Assembly (NCBI RefSeq): GCF_001937195.1
Contig: NZ_MSDO01000009.1
Coordinates: forward strand, 1-64,000
Reading direction: 5' to 3'
Length of the DNA stretch: 64,000 nucleotides
Source: Salinicola socius
Lineage (GTDB): Bacteria; Pseudomonadota; Gammaproteobacteria; Pseudomonadales; Halomonadaceae
The notes below the pieces were generated by a model. The model made no database searches, was not told where the DNA came from, and saw only the letters and a program-made list of their open reading frames with translations. Shown here in pieces: positions 33,826 to 39,680 of this stretch; within the stretch, counting starts at the first letter, position 1, and every line of letters begins with the position of its first letter. The position numbers were made by a program, and so were the translations under genes.

Positions 33826-35136
33826 TTGGACTCGCGTTTCCCCTTCGTCGACTGGTTTCGTCACTCATCGCCCTACGTCAATGCCCACCGCGGCAAGACT
33901 TTCGTCATTCTGATCGAAGGCGAGGCGATGGCATCGTCGCGACGCGGCCAACTATTGCAGGATCTGGCACTGCTGCACACGCTCGGTGTCCGGGTGGTGC
34001 TGGTTTACGGCATCCGGCCGCAGGTCGGCGCGGCGCTGGAGACCGACGGCATCACGCCGATGCGGGTTGGCGGGCGCTGGGTCGCCGATCGCCAGATCAT
34101 GGATCACGTCGAGCGTATCGCCGCCATCCAGCGGCTCGAGCTCGAAGCCCAGCTGTCGCTGGGATTGCCCAATACGCCGTTGCATGGCGTCGAACTGACG
34201 GCGGTTTCCGGCAATCTGGTGACGGCCAAGCCGCTGGGCGTCCGCGGCGGGGTGGATTTCGATCACAGCGGGGAAGTTCGTCGCGTGCGCAGCCAGGCCA
34301 TCGAGAGCCTGCTCGCCGGCGGCAACCTGGTGATTCTGCCGCCGCTGGGCTACTCACGCACCGGGGAGATCTTCGATCTCGACGCCTCGGAAATCGCCCA
34401 GCACGTGGCGGTGTCGCTCAGGGCGGATAAGCTGATTCTGCTGGGCGAGTCGGCCGGGCTGCATGACGACAGCGGCCAGCTGCAGCGCCAGCTGACACCT
34501 GACGAAGCCGACACCCTTCGCGAACGGGCGACTCCCGGCAGCGAACTCTCCCGACACCTGGGTGCGGCCTGCGGGGCGGCTCGTCACGGCGTCGGGCGTA
34601 CCCATCTGCTCTCCTGGCACGATCACGATGCGCTCCTTGGCGAGCTGTTCACTCGTGATGGTATCGGCACCATGATCACCCAGAACCACTATGAGCAGTT
34701 GCGTCAGGCGGTGCTGGACGACGTCGGCGGCCTGTTGGCGCTGTTGAAGCCGCTCGAGGCCAGCGGCATGCTGGTGGCGAGAACCCGCGAGCGGCTGGAG
34801 CACGAGATCGAGGACTACATCGTGATCGACCGCGATGGCATGGCGATCGGCTGCGCGGCGCTGCACGGTTACGCCGACGCCCGGATGGGCGAGCTCGCCT
34901 GTCTGGCCGTCCATGATGATTATCGCCGCGGTGCGCGGGGGGAAACTCTGCTCGAAGAGATAGAGCGGCGTGCCCGCCGGCAGGGGCTCACGCAGCTTTT
35001 TGCCCTGACCACCCATACCACGCACTGGTTCGTCGAACGTGGCTTCTCCATCGCCTCGCCGGAGGCGCTTCCCGATCTCAAGCGCGAGACCTACAACCAG
35101 GCCCGTCGCTCAAAGGTGTTGCTGAAGTCGCTGTAA
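33826..35136 (+). CDS. argA: N-acetylglutamate synthase ArgA
   Basis: First step of arginine synthesis: acetyl-CoA plus glutamate gives N-acetylglutamate. The amino-acid-kinase-like domain (FRHSSPYVNAHRGKTFVILIEGEA, then VVLVYGIRPQVGAALETDG) is followed by a GNAT domain (EDYIVIDRDGMAIGCAALHGYAD, LACLAVHDDYRRGARGETLL). A TTG at 33826 gives 436 residues, like E. coli ArgA (443), with GGAG ten bases upstream. The frame also opens at TTG 33769, but TATAGT at 33764-33769 looks like the promoter -10 there. Feedback inhibition by arginine is usual for the family. Confidence 0.94.
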   Translation: MDSRFPFVDWFRHSSPYVNAHRGKTFVILIEGEAMASSRRGQLLQDLALLHTLGVRVVLVYGIRPQVGAALETDGITPMRVGGRWVADRQIMDHVERIAAIQRLELEAQLSLGLPNTPLHGVELTAVSGNLVTAKPLGVRGGVDFDHSGEVRRVRSQAIESLLAGGNLVILPPLGYSRTGEIFDLDASEIAQHVAVSLRADKLILLGESAGLHDDSGQLQRQLTPDEADTLRERATPGSELSRHLGAACGAARHGVGRTHLLSWHDHDALLGELFTRDGIGTMITQNHYEQLRQAVLDDVGGLLALLKPLEASGMLVARTRERLEHEIEDYIVIDRDGMAIGCAALHGYADARMGELACLAVHDDYRRGARGETLLEEIERRARRQGLTQLFALTTHTTHWFVERGFSIASPEALPDLKRETYNQARRSKVLLKSL

Positions 35137-35225
35137 AGCGACACTCGAAAGCCCCGGATTTCAGCGATGGCGTCGGCAAACGGGGACGCTGTAACTTTAT
35201 GTTTTATAAGGATTCAATGGATTTC

Positions 35226-35268
35226 GGCCGAAAGGCGTCGTGAAATGGCGACGTTTTTCGGCCTTTTT
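35226..35268 (+). terminator. Rho-independent terminator after argA
   Basis: The outer stem GGCCGAAA/TTTCGGCC and inner stem CGTCG/CGACG make a long hairpin that ends in TTTTT at 35264-35268. It lies 90 bases past the argA stop. Confidence 0.85.
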
Positions 35269-35359
35269 GATGACCCTGTCACGCTACTCCCGAGCAGGGA
35301 GCGTTTCTGAATCAATCGACCATATTTAAGATATTGATACTTAAGGTTTTAATAAAACC

Positions 35360-35375
35360 TGGCACAGGTCTCGCT
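35360..35375 (+). promoter_or_regulatory. Sigma-54-type promoter upstream of the glrK operon
   Basis: TGGCACAGGTCTCGCT has GG at 35361-35362 and GC at 35373-35374, exactly ten bases apart as sigma-54 requires. The -24 half TGGCAC is perfect and the -12 half is TCGC instead of TTGC. The predicted start is near 35386. The region just upstream is AT-rich with the inverted repeat TTAAG-N9-CTTAA (35326-35344). No TGTC-N10/11-GACA GlrR-type site was found. GlrR, a sigma-54 activator, is encoded 3 kb downstream. Confidence 0.55.
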
Positions 35376-35385
35376 ATTACCTACA

Positions 35386-35854
35386 GCGAGAGCAACGAGA
35401 TGGTTTCTCTGAAGCTATCTCGTCGGATCTGGTCAGTGCCCCTAACTACCCTGTGCAGGGCCTGGCAGAATTCGACAGCGTCTGCTCCACGCGATGTGTG
35501 ACTTAGGTTGCGATGAGACGGGTGCGGCCTTAACAGGCAAGGAAATGCACCATTAGGGCAAGGATGCCCCGGCAAGGATGCCTTCCCCCTCGCGAGAGGG
35601 GATCCATTGCGATGGGTCGCCGGATTGTTCGGAAATGATCTTTCGATCGATCAGGCGGCTGATTCAGAAACGAAGCAGGCGGTTCGCCGTCACGCTATTC
35701 GATAGCCCCTGAATGGCTGAGTCGAATATCGGCTTCGGGGCCATCTGGCCCGCGGGAGCGGTCTCGAATAGCTGATTCAGGCAGTGTTTCAAGGTCGTTA
35801 TCGACCCTTCAGTTCCCTGCGTACTTGGGCCGGCTCTGCCGGCCCTCTTTTTTT
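35386..35854 (+). ncRNA. Candidate noncoding transcript upstream of glrK (glmY-like position)
   Basis: The 840 bases between argA and glrK hold no convincing protein gene. From the predicted sigma-54 start the RNA would fold hairpins ACGAGAT/ATCTCGT (35395-35423) and CCCCTC-GCGA-GAGGGG (35586-35601, a GNRA tetraloop). It would reach a strong terminator at 35827-35854. In E. coli the sRNA gene glmY, transcribed from overlapping sigma-54 and sigma-70 promoters, lies in the same place upstream of glrK-qseG-glrR. I see no recognisable glmY sequence, and the real 3' end could be earlier. The call rests on promoter, terminator and position. Confidence 0.3.
35827..35854 (+). terminator. Strong rho-independent terminator before glrK
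   Basis: A perfect 8-bp stem GGGCCGGC (35827-35834) with GCCGGCCC (35838-35845) and a TCT loop is followed by TCTTTTTTT. No protein gene ends just upstream on this strand, so it must end an untranslated transcript. Confidence 0.9.
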
Positions 35855-36013
35855 GAGTGGATTCCCGGCGCACGACCGGAGGCGGCCGTCGATCAGGGTA
35901 AGGCTGATATCCCTGCGCGCTCGACGCTTCGACCTGAATGAGCATTCAATAATAATGTTATCCTTGCGGAACGATCCATGACCCCAATGGGCATCCTGCA
36001 TAGAGCGATTTTC

Positions 36014-37573
36014 ATGACCACCGAGTTCTCCCGACGCTGGCGTCCTCGCTCGCTACTGCAACTGGTGTTGCTGGCATTCGTTGTCGTCATGCTGCCGATT
36101 GCGGTGCTGATGTTTCAGGCCGGCCAGGCGCTGTCTCAGCTGTCGACGCTCGCCGACCAGAGCGCTCGGGAAGCCGTCGAAGAGACACGCCGGGCGCGAA
36201 TGCTGAGCTCGCTGGCGCTGCAGATGGAGCGCAGCGCCCGCCAGTACGCCGTGATCGAGGAACAAGGACTTCGGGATATCTACGATCAGAAAGTCCAGCA
36301 GTTCGGGGAGTTGCTGCAACAGCACGAACCGTTGATGCGCGACAATCCCGACTTTCAATCGCTGGACCAGCGCTTTCAGGAGCTGCAGCGCCTGCCCCAG
36401 GCATCGGTGGATGACATGGACGCCTTCCTGGCGCGGTTTTCAGGGTTCGCCACCGAGTCCGATGCGGTAAGGAACGCCACCAATGCGCTGGTCGATGCGC
36501 GTATCGCGGATATCCGCGATCAGGCGAACTCGGTCAAGGCGAGGCTGTGGATGCAGACCGCCGCACTGGTTTCCGCCAGCCTGATCCTGATGCTGTTCTT
36601 CACCTGGTTGATCACGCGACCGATTCGCCAGATCGAGCGGCGAATCTTCGGGCTGGGTAGTGGCGATTGCGATCACGTACCGACCCGCATTCAGGGCCCG
36701 GCGGAACTGGTCCAGTTGGGCGATCGACTCACCTGGCTTTCGAATCGGCTGTCGGAGCTGGAAGCGCAAAAGCAGCAGTTTCTCCGTCACATGTCGCATG
36801 AGCTGAAGACGCCGCTCGCCAGTGTCCGGGAGGGGACTTCGCTGCTCTCCGACGGCGTGGCCGGTGAACTCAACGAGCGTCAGAGCGAGGTCGTGAGGCT
36901 GATCGACGAAAACGGGCAGGAATTGCAGACGCTGATCGAGCAACTGCTGGATTACAACCTGCTGCAGAACAGTCGCCGAATGAAGGTCGCCTCGTTCGAT
37001 GTCGCTACCGTGATACAGGAAGTGCTGGCCAAGCACCGGCTGGCGCTGGACAACAAGGGCATGCAGGTCAAGAGTCCGCACCACCCGTTGCAGTGGCAGG
37101 CGGATCGCGAGCGCACGGTGCGGATCCTGGACAACCTGGTTTCGAATGCCATCGCCTACGGTGACGACGGCGGTCAACTGGTCATCCGCGTTGCACAGCA
37201 GCGCGACTGGCTGGTGCTGGACGTCGCCAACAGCGGCGAACCCATCGCCGAAATCGATCGTGAACACCTGTTCGAAGCGTTCTATCAGGGCAGCGCGCGG
37301 CGCAAGGGCCCGTTGAAGGGGTCGGGCATCGGCCTTTCCGTGGCATCGGACTGCGCCAGGTTGCAGGATGGGGAGCTGGTGCTGGTGGATGACGCCGACC
37401 TCCCGGTCTGTTTTCGACTTACCCTGCCGTGGGCCAATCGCGCGGCTCCCGGTTCGCAACAGGATGCGACGCACGGTTCGCAACACGATAGAGCGCAACA
37501 CGATAATGAAGCCGCGCCAGACGAGTCGCTCCTGGCAGGTGAAGGAAGGAAAGAAACATGGTCAGTCAGATAA
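36014..37573 (+). CDS. glrK: Sensor histidine kinase GlrK (QseE)
   Basis: The 519-residue membrane kinase has TM1 at about residues 14-35, a helical periplasmic domain and TM2 near 192-212. HAMP is followed by the H-box FLRHMSHELKTPLASVREG with the phospho-histidine at base 36797. The ATPase boxes are ILDNLVSNAIAYGDDGG and LKGSGIGLSVASDC. It partners GlrR. I prefer the ATG at 36014, which aligns with E. coli GlrK; the upstream ATG at 35978 is also open. The C-terminus has an odd GSQQDATHGSQHDRAQHDNE-like tail made by a short DNA duplication. It overlaps qseG by 16 bases. Confidence 0.9.
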   Translation: MTTEFSRRWRPRSLLQLVLLAFVVVMLPIAVLMFQAGQALSQLSTLADQSAREAVEETRRARMLSSLALQMERSARQYAVIEEQGLRDIYDQKVQQFGELLQQHEPLMRDNPDFQSLDQRFQELQRLPQASVDDMDAFLARFSGFATESDAVRNATNALVDARIADIRDQANSVKARLWMQTAALVSASLILMLFFTWLITRPIRQIERRIFGLGSGDCDHVPTRIQGPAELVQLGDRLTWLSNRLSELEAQKQQFLRHMSHELKTPLASVREGTSLLSDGVAGELNERQSEVVRLIDENGQELQTLIEQLLDYNLLQNSRRMKVASFDVATVIQEVLAKHRLALDNKGMQVKSPHHPLQWQADRERTVRILDNLVSNAIAYGDDGGQLVIRVAQQRDWLVLDVANSGEPIAEIDREHLFEAFYQGSARRKGPLKGSGIGLSVASDCARLQDGELVLVDDADLPVCFRLTLPWANRAAPGSQQDATHGSQHDRAQHDNEAAPDESLLAGEGRKETWSVR

Positions 37574-38103
37574 GAACGACGTTGGCGCTGGTCGGCGTGA
37601 TGGCACTGGCGGGTTGCCAGTCGCTCTCCCGTGAATCCGTTCCCTACGGTTGCGGCGACATCCCGACTTACGCCGACAATGTATGCCTGGTCGACACCTG
37701 GATCGCGTTCGGCCTGCAGGCCCAGCGCGGCGATGCGGAGTGGCGCGAAGAGATGCTGGCCGACGTCGGCCAGCGTCGTATGGATCAGAAGGCGGTGCGC
37801 GCCGTGGTGCTCTCCTGGGATGGCCCCGGCGAATGGCAAAAGGCATCGAATCTGTACAAGGCGTCGATCGACTCGGCGCCGGCCCGGCTGCAGCCGCTGC
37901 TTCGGCAGTGGTTGAACGAGCTGGAGGCGCGGCGTCAGCTATACGCCCAGCGTGGCAATAGCGCCCGCGGGCAGGGCAGTCGCCACGACGGTACGCAGGC
38001 GCTCAAGCAGGAAAACGAGAAGCTGAAACAACAGCTCAAGGAGATGTCGGACAAGCTGGAAGCCCTGACCGATATCGAACGAACCATCAACGCCCGCGAC
38101 TGA
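37558..38103 (+). CDS. qseG: QseG-like outer-membrane lipoprotein
   Basis: The 181-residue lipoprotein has a signal peptide ending in the lipobox VMALAGC (Cys20), a mature region with several helices, and a C-terminal coiled coil (ALKQENEKLKQQLKEMSDKLEALTDIERT). It lies between the kinase and response regulator genes, as qseG (yfhG) does in E. coli, where QseG binds and modulates the GlrK/QseE kinase. Sequence similarity in this family is low, so the name rests mainly on context. The start has AAGGAAAGAAA upstream. Confidence 0.75.
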   Translation: MVSQIRTTLALVGVMALAGCQSLSRESVPYGCGDIPTYADNVCLVDTWIAFGLQAQRGDAEWREEMLADVGQRRMDQKAVRAVVLSWDGPGEWQKASNLYKASIDSAPARLQPLLRQWLNELEARRQLYAQRGNSARGQGSRHDGTQALKQENEKLKQQLKEMSDKLEALTDIERTINARD

Positions 38104-38249
38104 CACTCGCCCAGCGACCTACACTCACGTCAACCAAGCCATCCGTGCGATTCGTGCAGTATCGGCATCGCACGACCGCGTCACAAAGAGCGTGACAACC
38201 CTTCAATCGGCAACGACAAGGCGAAGCGGTGGCAGGAGGTGCCCATTCG

Positions 38250-39680
38250 ATGTCCCTGAATACAGAAGCTCCCAAGACCCGACCGGTCAGAACGCCGGCC
38301 ATGCAGCCAGGCAAGCGCAGTAACGCGGCCCATATCCTGCTGGTCGACGACGATACCAGCCTGCTCAAGTTGCTGGGCATGCGTCTGGAAAGCCGCGGCT
38401 TTCGGGTCACCACGGCCGAAAGCGGCCGCGAAGCGCTGACCCATATCGAAGAGACCGCGCCGGACCTGGTGCTGTCCGATCTGCGCATGGACGAGATGGA
38501 CGGCCTGGCGCTGTTCCATGAGTTGCAGCGCCGCGTGCCGGGCATTCCGGTAATCATTCTCACCGCCCACGGTTCGATTCCGGATGCCGTCAGCGCGACG
38601 CGCCAGGGTGTGTTCAGCTTCTTGACCAAGCCGATCGATCGCGATGAGCTGTTCGAAGCGATCGACGAAGCGCTCAAGCAGACGCCGACCACGCGTGGCG
38701 AGGGCGGTGAAGCGTGGCGTTCGAAGATCATCACCCGCAGCCCGCAGATGGAGCGCATTCTCGAGCAGGCCTACATGGTCGCCGCTTCGGACGTCAGCGT
38801 GCTGCTGACCGGCCCCAGCGGGAGCGGCAAGGAACTGCTGGCCAATGCCATGCATCAGGCCAGCCCGCGCGCCGACAAGCCCTTCGTCGCCATCAACTGC
38901 GGCGCACTGCCGGAACAGCTGCTGGAAAGCGAACTGTTCGGTCATGCCCGCGGCGCCTTCACCGGCGCCGTGAGTCAGCATGACGGGCTGTTTCTGGCGG
39001 CCGATGGCGGCACGCTGTTCCTGGACGAGATCGGCGATATGCCGCTGCCGCTGCAGGTCAAGCTGCTGCGCGTACTGCAGGAGCGTCAGGTTCGCCCGCT
39101 GGGCAGTACCAAGTCGTTTCCGATCGATGTCCGGATCATTTCCGCCACCCATCGCGATCTCGACCGCGCCATGCACGAAGGCGACTTCCGCGAGGATCTC
39201 TACTATCGCCTCAACGTGGTCAACCTCAAGCTGCCGCCGTTGAGAGATCGCGCCGAAGACATCCCCCTGCTCGCCAAGCACATCGTGGCCCAGGTCTCGG
39301 CGCGGCATAAGCCGTTCGTCAAAGGCTTCTCGCCGGAAGCGCTCAATCTGCTCGCCTCCAGCGGCTGGCCGGGTAACGTGCGCCAACTGGTCAACGTGGT
39401 CGAGCAGTGCGTCGCCCTGACCAGCACCCCGATGATCCCGGAAGCGCTGGTCTCCCAGGCGCTGGTCGCCGAGGAGAACGCACTGCCCTCGTTCAGCGAG
39501 GCGCGTGCGGGTTTCGAGCGCAGCTACCTGATCAAGGTGCTCAAGATCACCGAAGGCAACGTCACCCAGGCGGCGCGCATCGCCGGACGAAACCGCACTG
39601 ACTTCTACAAGCTGCTGTCGCGTCACGATCTGGACCCCAGCACCTTCAAGCCGAGCGCGATGCCGGATCCGGCAGGCTGA
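38250..39680 (+). CDS. glrR: Sigma-54-dependent response regulator GlrR (QseF)
   Basis: The 476-residue NtrC-type activator has a receiver domain at about residues 28-140 with Asp77 ([13 protein letters not shown]). The AAA+ domain has Walker A GPSGSGKE (188-195), the sigma-54-contacting GAFTGA loop (235-240), Walker [13 protein letters not shown] and the ARLRxDLYYRL-like [14 protein letters not shown]-terminal Fis-type HTH ([23 protein letters not shown]) ends the protein. AGGAGGT supports the start at 38250. In E. coli it activates glmY and rpoE. Here the sigma-54-type site upstream of glrK is its natural first candidate target. Confidence 0.93.

Follow-up and report, generated by a model that had tools for sequence, protein, structure and literature searches.

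In Escherichia coli, the small RNA gene glmY lies directly upstream of glrK-qseG-glrR, and PMC6075780 and PMC8745638, in their available text, describe glmY-glrR control in Enterobacteriaceae and Proteus. The corresponding locus of Salinicola socius (Halomonadaceae) raises the question of whether a small RNA occupies this position there and what it may do. We analyzed a window of 64,000 nucleotides (contig NZ_MSDO01000009.1, positions 1 to 64,000), in which argA (stop codon at 35136) and glrK are separated by a gap of 841 bases (35137-35977). An initial annotation of this DNA had noted a sigma-54-type promoter and an orphan terminator in this gap of about 840 bases, at the glmY position, and had assigned a sigma-54 activator to the neighboring operon. 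These observations were confirmed, the activator by a glrR match above the model cut-off. The genes of the operon are as follows.

35978..37573, + strand: glrK, sensor kinase (position and HisKA/HATPase domains; no GlrK-specific model matched)
37558..38103, + strand: qseG (PF13942 lipoprotein above cut-off; NCBIfam NF007997 below cut-off)
38229..39680, + strand: glrR, sigma-54 activator (NF011695, 803 bits versus a cut-off of 763)

Genome searches also detected genes for CsrA and RapZ. Positions 1-53 of the window are a tRNA gene that has lost its 5' end at the window edge.

A conserved candidate RNA gene in the argA-glrK gap

35386..35854, + strand: predicted small RNA gene, about 470 nt (conservation, fold, promoter, terminator)
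35827..35854, + strand: intrinsic terminator of the RNA (8-pair all-GC stem 35827-35845, T tract to 35854)

The minimum free energy of 35386-35856 corresponded to z = -4.8 relative to dinucleotide shuffles. The terminator had been described as an orphan, and indeed it ends no protein gene; argA is followed by a second terminator-like hairpin of its own (35226-35263), which is separate from that of the RNA. In relatives, the RNA is mostly 440-560 nt long, with shorter forms (152 nt in L057), and in those gaps for which its 3' end was placed, glrK starts roughly 55-250 bases downstream of it.

Using blastn on 117 genomes, we matched the gap in 54/73 Halomonadaceae genomes and in 0/44 genomes outside the family. 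The count of 54/73 is a lower bound, as two genomes that were missed (G046 and G060) contain 16 or more bases of the 3' element described below, and presence counts are biased upward because the gaps were found via similarity to the gap itself. Beyond the genus Salinicola, similarity was mainly found in two blocks, 35476-35592 and 35803-35855, the latter with up to 100% identity over 51 bases; the promoter elements fell outside the matched blocks in most of these genera. The promoter, GlrR, IHF, and 3'-element counts given per 54 refer to the 54 extracted argA-glrK gaps.

The exact 16-mer TTCAGTTCCCTGCGTA occurred in 12/390 genomes of the order, all of them within the 18 Halomonadaceae sampled. 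A scan of named genomes with the 19-mer yielded at least 118 stretches. Among the 80 matches listed, 79 were Halomonadaceae by record title, from Halomonas (including H. elongata, L259), Salinicola, Kushneria, Billgrantia, Litchfieldella, Modicisalibacter, Chromohalobacter, Cobetia, and others, genera that we take to be members of the family, and one was a "Chloroflexi" metagenome-assembled genome without a good promoter-like site. Among these same 80 matches, 71 lay upstream of glrK, 62 of these on a stretch that also includes argA, and the other 9 were at different places. Removing L213, L216, and L245, which have short upstream DNA, from the 71 left 68 loci. These and a dereplicated alignment of 49 sequences (A1) are cleaner sets than one of 130 RNAs, which counts some species twice. 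In other families, neither a 12-mer of the 3' element nor a 13-mer of the 5' domain was present in any of 20 upstream regions fetched; these were drawn from 34 sub-cut-off GlrR hits of >500 bits, and GlrK was recognized in 16 of the 20.

A glmY-like control region precedes the predicted RNA

35171..35188, + strand: distal GlrR-type site CGTCGGCAAACGGGGACG (6/8 to TGTC-N10-GACA; 189 bp upstream of the first T of the -24 element)
35236..35253, + strand: proximal GlrR-type site CGTCGTGAAATGGCGACG (6/8 to TGTC-N10-GACA; at -124, within hairpin 35226-35263)
35327..35339, + strand: IHF-type core TAAGATATTGATA (9/9 to YAANNNNTTGATW; at -33)
35360..35375, + strand: sigma-54 -24/-12 element TGGCACAGGTCTCGCT (GG-N10-GC; predicted start at about 35386)

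The sigma-54-type promoter proposed by the initial annotation at 35360-35375 stood. TGGCACAGGTCTCGCT is the sole zero-mismatch match to the pattern TGGCACNNNNNTNGCW within the 64 kb, and because an estimated 0.24 matches per 64 kb would be expected by chance on both strands, the motif by itself is unremarkable; what is notable about it is its position and its conservation. The best -24/-12 score was 10, 9, and 8 of 10 in 48, 5, and 1 of the 54 gaps. Shuffled gaps reached scores of 10 and 9 in 0.08 and 2.1 per 54, so that a score of 9-10 was seen in 53/54 gaps compared to 2.2 per 54 expected in shuffles. The 68 glrK-linked loci among the matches listed, which were scored without such a control, gave 10, 9, and 8 in 52, 15, and 1 cases.

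The available text of PMC6075780 gives the QseF consensus as TGTN12ACA, with three sites and assistance by IHF, and that of PMC8745638 gives TGTCN10GACA. We scored TGTC-N10-GACA and found two weak sites in the window, 65 bp apart, where no canonical GlrR site had been recognized before. Since about half of the shuffled upstream regions reach 6/8 somewhere, two sites with this score are unimpressive in one genome. They nevertheless occupy both of the positions that are conserved in relatives. A site of at least 6/8 was present at the distal position (-195 to -177) in 50/54 gaps and at the proximal position (-129 to -111) in 53/54; both positions, whose limits were picked after viewing the palindrome scan, were filled in 49/54 gaps compared to 0.4 in shuffles. 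The spacing of the pair was 64-68 bp in 47 of these 49. The best score was 8, 7, and 6 of 8 in 10, 33, and 11 gaps, and mononucleotide shuffles gave 0.2, 3.3, and 25.7 per 54, which makes 43/54 gaps at 7-8 versus 3.5 expected.

The same scan detected three TGTC-N10-GACA sites, an IHF core, and TGGCACAGTTACTGCA at glmY of E. coli MG1655, and the inner bases of the gap sites resemble those of the E. coli sites (TGTCGCTTTCTGGCGACA and two others). GlrR control is the natural reading of the paired palindromes, which GlrR would bind. An IHF-type core was located at -32 to -34 with scores of 9, 8, 7, and 6 of 9 in 17, 21, 14, and 2 gaps, that is, at least 7/9 in 52/54. The best core in a wider stretch of shuffled sequence had these scores in 0.2, 2.8, 20.5, and 28 cases, and 38/54 gaps at 8-9 compare to 2.9 expected.

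The terminator-like hairpin that follows argA is built around the proximal palindrome, and so one sequence may serve both roles. Other families showed related arrangements. At L335, in the stretch from about 860 to 40 bases before glrK, a sigma-54-type element and two GlrR-like sites 68 bp apart precede a small lipoprotein-like open reading frame (ORF) instead of the RNA. At L336 and L343, GlrR-like palindromes are immediately upstream of glrK, which suggests autoregulation.

Taken as a whole, the locus has the makeup of a sigma-54/two-component sRNA: a -24/-12 promoter, activator sites, a terminator, and no conserved reading frame. Sequence conservation strongly supports a predicted discrete small RNA with its own control region and terminator; its transcription, CsrA binding, and targets are what we infer from these data. 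A literature search, in which subscription papers were thinly covered, retrieved no published report of the RNA, and its novelty is unproven.

The 5' domain carries CsrA-type hairpins

35476..35592, + strand: conserved 5' domain (47-nt stretch 35477-35523 plus GGA hairpins)
35521..35551, + strand: hairpin 1, bipartite stem with unpaired AAGGA
35556..35569, + strand: hairpin 2, GGGC[AAGGAU]GCCC, CsrA/RsmA-type hexaloop
35571..35582, + strand: hairpin 3, GGC[AAGGAU]GCC, CsrA/RsmA-type hexaloop

The initial annotation had named conserved structure in relatives as a test and had suggested aligning the gap across Halomonadaceae. This comparison revealed, besides the control elements, a conserved RNA structure made of GGA hairpins, with covariation in two of the three. 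In the 49 dereplicated sequences, 93.8% of the cells of the GGA domain were paired, and both sides had changed in 11/18 pairs. Four of five covariation measures were reached by 0/500 shuffles and the fifth by 1/500, for a structure derived from the very alignment on which it was tested; structures slid along the alignment paired in just 27-39%. The covariation comes from hairpins 1 and 2, where the loops remain A-N-GGA-U while the stems change compensatorily. The stem of hairpin 3 is nearly invariant and contributes no covariation. Pairing failed at the closing pairs of hairpin 2 (12/49) and hairpin 3 (10/49) and at the innermost pair of helix 1 (21/49). RNAalifold also drew A-N-GGA-U hexaloops from this alignment.

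In the 68 loci among the matches listed, we counted 104 A-N-GGA-U hexaloop hairpins in 30.8 kb of RNA, compared to 30 on the two strands of 1.06 Mb of flanking DNA, an enrichment of about 120-fold in a test devised after the loops had been seen. Counting any GGA in any hairpin loop gave a weak signal (2.87 versus 2.28 in shuffles), and the RNA of the window has 8 GGA in total versus 8.3 expected from composition. Hexaloop hairpins were absent from 9/130 RNAs and numbered two per RNA at most; L056 and L057 lack the GGA hairpins. In the fold of the window's own RNA, rival pairings compete with hairpin 3 (z = -1.3).

The three GGA start at 35541, 35562, and 35576, 21 and 14 nt apart. According to the available text of PMC7652899, a CsrA dimer bridges sites 10-63 nt apart, best above 18, and CsrA recognizes ANGGAN hexaloops and the SELEX consensus RUACARGGAUGU. 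The AAGGAU loop fits both. The RsmZ-2 hairpin, CCCCG-AAGGAU-CGGGG, binds RsmA in the available text of PMC4066749.

The 47 nt at 35477-35523 are conserved beyond what the GGA hairpins explain. This stretch is not coding, because indels in L037, L047, and L048 put it out of frame; for the same reason we rejected a small ORF, MCDLGCDET, that recurred among 12 RNAs examined. At L052 (2050-2136, reverse strand), a 5' GGA domain follows a weaker sigma-54-type element, and the 3' element was absent from the 130 nt inspected. A 5' GGA domain found by itself suggests that the 5' and 3' domains may be modular.

A 3' element shared with sibling RNAs

35805..35823, + strand: conserved 3' element CCCTTCAGTTCCCTGCGTA, candidate base-pairing seed (conservation)

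Before the terminator, CCCUUCAGUUCCCUGCGUA was exact in 47/54 RNAs, and its core, AGTTCCCTGCGTA, was present in 54/54, each with a T run no more than 50 nt downstream. The same 3' element was found in five siblings away from glrK (L221, L232, L234, L251, and L254), whose sigma-54-type elements score 9-10 of 10 and whose GlrR-type sites, at -114 or -115, match 6-7 of 8 bases. L053 and L054 (reverse strand) hold siblings similar to these five, and L050 (about 1978-2205) holds the same sibling as L234; these three are near frames that look aldo/keto-reductase-like or GGDEF-like by their motifs. The hexaloop hairpin is absent in L232 and L254, and some siblings have GGA-loop hairpins with different stems. 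In L040 (2101-2917) and L045 (2429-3255), two tandem 3' modules lie between argA and glrK, each copy with a top-scoring sigma-54 element. Sibling and tandem copies suggest a family of RNAs sharing one seed. L051 (about 2131-2177, the same place as L226) has the 3' element and a terminator without a good promoter; its surroundings are phage-like, with repressor-like and recombination-like frames recognized by eye, and a phage-borne copy of the seed is possible.

Searches of the own genome, of the family, and of glmS established no conserved mRNA target for this element. In the own genome, seed complements were not in excess over reversed-pattern controls (23 versus 25; 19 versus 17). The best start-codon-proximal site, in the leader of a sulfate-binding protein gene (L107), was set aside, as its conservation extends to part of the genus and weakens in the rest. 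The leader of a pilT-like gene (L120) pairs with the 3' element. Across Halomonadaceae, the seed complement preceded an ATG at 39 places in 30/81 genomes, of which 16 were discarded as the antisense of the RNA gene itself (GAAGGG continuation). In 20 translated loci, recurrence amounted to two same-genus pairs, L145/L146 before a 451-codon frame and L149/L150 before a frame of 26-27 codons.

We rechecked glmS in 19 Halomonadaceae loci of 30. In 10/14 loci of the genus (for example, L096 and L105), the 3' element paired with one common site, about +37 to +60, with energies of -18.9 to -24.4 kcal/mol, mostly -20.7, that 0-11/50 shuffled seeds equaled. This pairing is modest and involves coding sequence that is itself conserved, at the margin of the examined stretch. 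Among five other Halomonadaceae loci, only L094 was similar, the rest pairing at other places or with a strength that many shuffled seeds equaled, and glmS leaders outside the family had no common site by eye.

Relation to known regulatory RNAs

The initial annotation had seen no glmY sequence similarity, which agrees with our searches: the GlmY/GlmZ Rfam models did not match at the gathering score or at E<=10, and E. coli GlmY had no blastn similarity to the RNA. Matches of the Rfam SorY and suhB models in the terminator region were rejected as far below the gathering score. The resemblance to GlmY is one of location and control, with sigma-54, GlrR-type, and IHF sites in front of a gene directly upstream of glrK-qseG-glrR, and with two TGTC-N10-GACA sites 63 bp apart in E. 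coli and 65 bp apart here. Even so, two GlrR-type positions are conserved here versus three sites in E. coli; the best IHF core of E. coli glmY is at -150, with an 8/9 candidate on the other strand at -31, compared to -33 here; and the flanking gene is argA instead of purL. The RNA itself differs in its unrelated sequence, its 2-3 times greater length, and its CsrA-type loops. By its sequence it is outside the GlmY family, and from its control sites we infer that it is made like GlmY. Of the earlier suggestion of a GlmY analogue, the regulatory half has strong sequence support, with sigma-54, GlrR-type, and IHF-type sites conserved over many genera; a GlmY-like function is a possibility, with a RapZ gene present and the modest glmS pairing in most loci of the genus, and in place of a sequence or Rfam relation there are CsrA-type hairpins.

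Like CsrB/CsrC and RsmX/Y/Z, the RNA presents GGA in hexaloops of stable hairpins, and AAGGAU is the RsmZ-2 loop motif. Unlike CsrB-type sponges, it offers few sites: no more than two hexaloop hairpins and, besides them, one bipartite hairpin whose GGA is unpaired. Scanning the window against all Rfam gave no match to Csr/Rsm RNAs, and the RsmZ model had none above the cut-off in 38 genomes. One RsmZ-like match of 39 bits, below the cut-off, was seen at L349 in G020, a genome in which blastn missed the RNA; the model also weakly matches two unrelated control genomes. The GacA-type palindrome, TGTAAG-N6-CTTACA, was found in 0/54 gaps with slight degeneracy allowed. The control elements are of the GlrR/sigma-54 type, unlike those of the Gac-controlled CsrB/RsmZ RNAs.

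Qrr RNAs (LuxO) and CrcZ (CbrB) are sigma-54-dependent RNAs of an NtrC-type regulator, and the RNA described here resembles them as a predicted sigma-54-driven small RNA paired with such a regulator, although activator and RNA differ. McaS and GadY are controlled by systems other than GlrR/sigma-54. Both of these E. coli RNAs act by base pairing and are bound by CsrA as well, with few GGA sites (available text of PMC7652899 and PMC10729762). The RNA shares with them the few GGA sites and a presumed base-pairing role, and we claim no sequence relation; its presumed seed, unlike theirs, is common to sibling RNAs. By analogy, it may act like McaS or like an Rsm RNA.

Alternative explanations

We consider it probable that this is a GlrR/sigma-54-driven RNA of the GlrK-QseG-GlrR system that binds CsrA via its 5' domain and base-pairs via its 3' element. 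An RNA under the same control that would act by base pairing only, its GGA hairpins being structural or bound by a partner other than CsrA, is unlikely. It would account for L056 and L057, which keep the 3' element and promoter without the GGA domain, and for siblings that share the 3' element, including the two without the hexaloop hairpin. Against it stand the A-N-GGA-U loops retained despite compensatory changes in the stems of hairpins 1 and 2, the strong enrichment of the exact hexaloop, and the GGA-loop hairpins that some siblings hold on different stems. We regard as quite improbable a functional GlmY/GlmZ of unrelated sequence, with RapZ as its partner and glmS under its control. The failure to match GlmY/GlmZ by Rfam or blastn, a length 2-3 times that of GlmY, and glmS leaders without a common site outside Halomonadaceae argue against such an RNA, which would otherwise fit the shared locus, the same kinds of control elements, and the presence of a RapZ gene. 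The glmS site at +37 to +60 bears on both sides, as the best pairing of the 3' element in the 10 genus loci and L094 and as a modest site in coding sequence, at the edge of the examined stretch and mostly absent from other Halomonadaceae loci.

The RNA ends close to glrK, some read-through is plausible, and in Proteus mirabilis glmY-qseEGF is co-transcribed (available text of PMC8745638). That the RNA serves the glrK operon as a leader or attenuator is nonetheless very unlikely, given the T run after the 3' element in 54/54 copies and the siblings with promoter, 3' element, and terminator away from glrK. A chance collection of motifs in ordinary intergenic DNA would suit the expectation of about 0.24 sigma-54 patterns per window and the weakness of the window's GlrR sites; its probability is negligible, as it is refuted by independent elements conserved over many genera, with controls.

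Proposed role in Halomonadaceae

For the CsrA-binding, base-pairing RNA that we favor, the conserved elements suggest the following model. Phosphorylated GlrR, looped by IHF, would activate sigma-54 RNA polymerase, giving an RNA of about 470 nt. The tandem A-N-GGA-U hairpins of its 5' domain would bind CsrA, at a spacing within the bridging range of the dimer, with the result that CsrA is titrated or that the RNA is placed under CsrA control; two hexaloops per RNA at most are few for a titrating RNA. The 19-nt 3' element beside the terminator would be the base-pairing seed, presumably with Hfq. An envelope-sensing two-component system could in this way feed, via one RNA, into the Csr network as well as a group of mRNAs. 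We put forward more tentatively, as possible but somewhat short of probable, that the GlrK-QseG-GlrR system of Halomonadaceae runs the Csr network directly, through a dual-function RNA and same-seed siblings that capture CsrA by tandem hexaloop hairpins and pair with mRNAs.

In the available text of PMC7366521, Halomonas anticariensis is listed with an unknown Csr/Rsm RNA partner. Litchfieldella anticariensis FP35 (L207, the same species) carries the RNA with at least one hexaloop hairpin. If the proposal is true, the RNA would supply, at least in part, the missing Halomonas Csr/Rsm RNA, with sigma-54/GlrR replacing Gac control, and the glmY control region would have been retained while the RNA within it was replaced. 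The same control architecture before an unrelated RNA in another family suggests that the lasting unit may be, rather than any particular RNA, a GlrR-controlled RNA slot.
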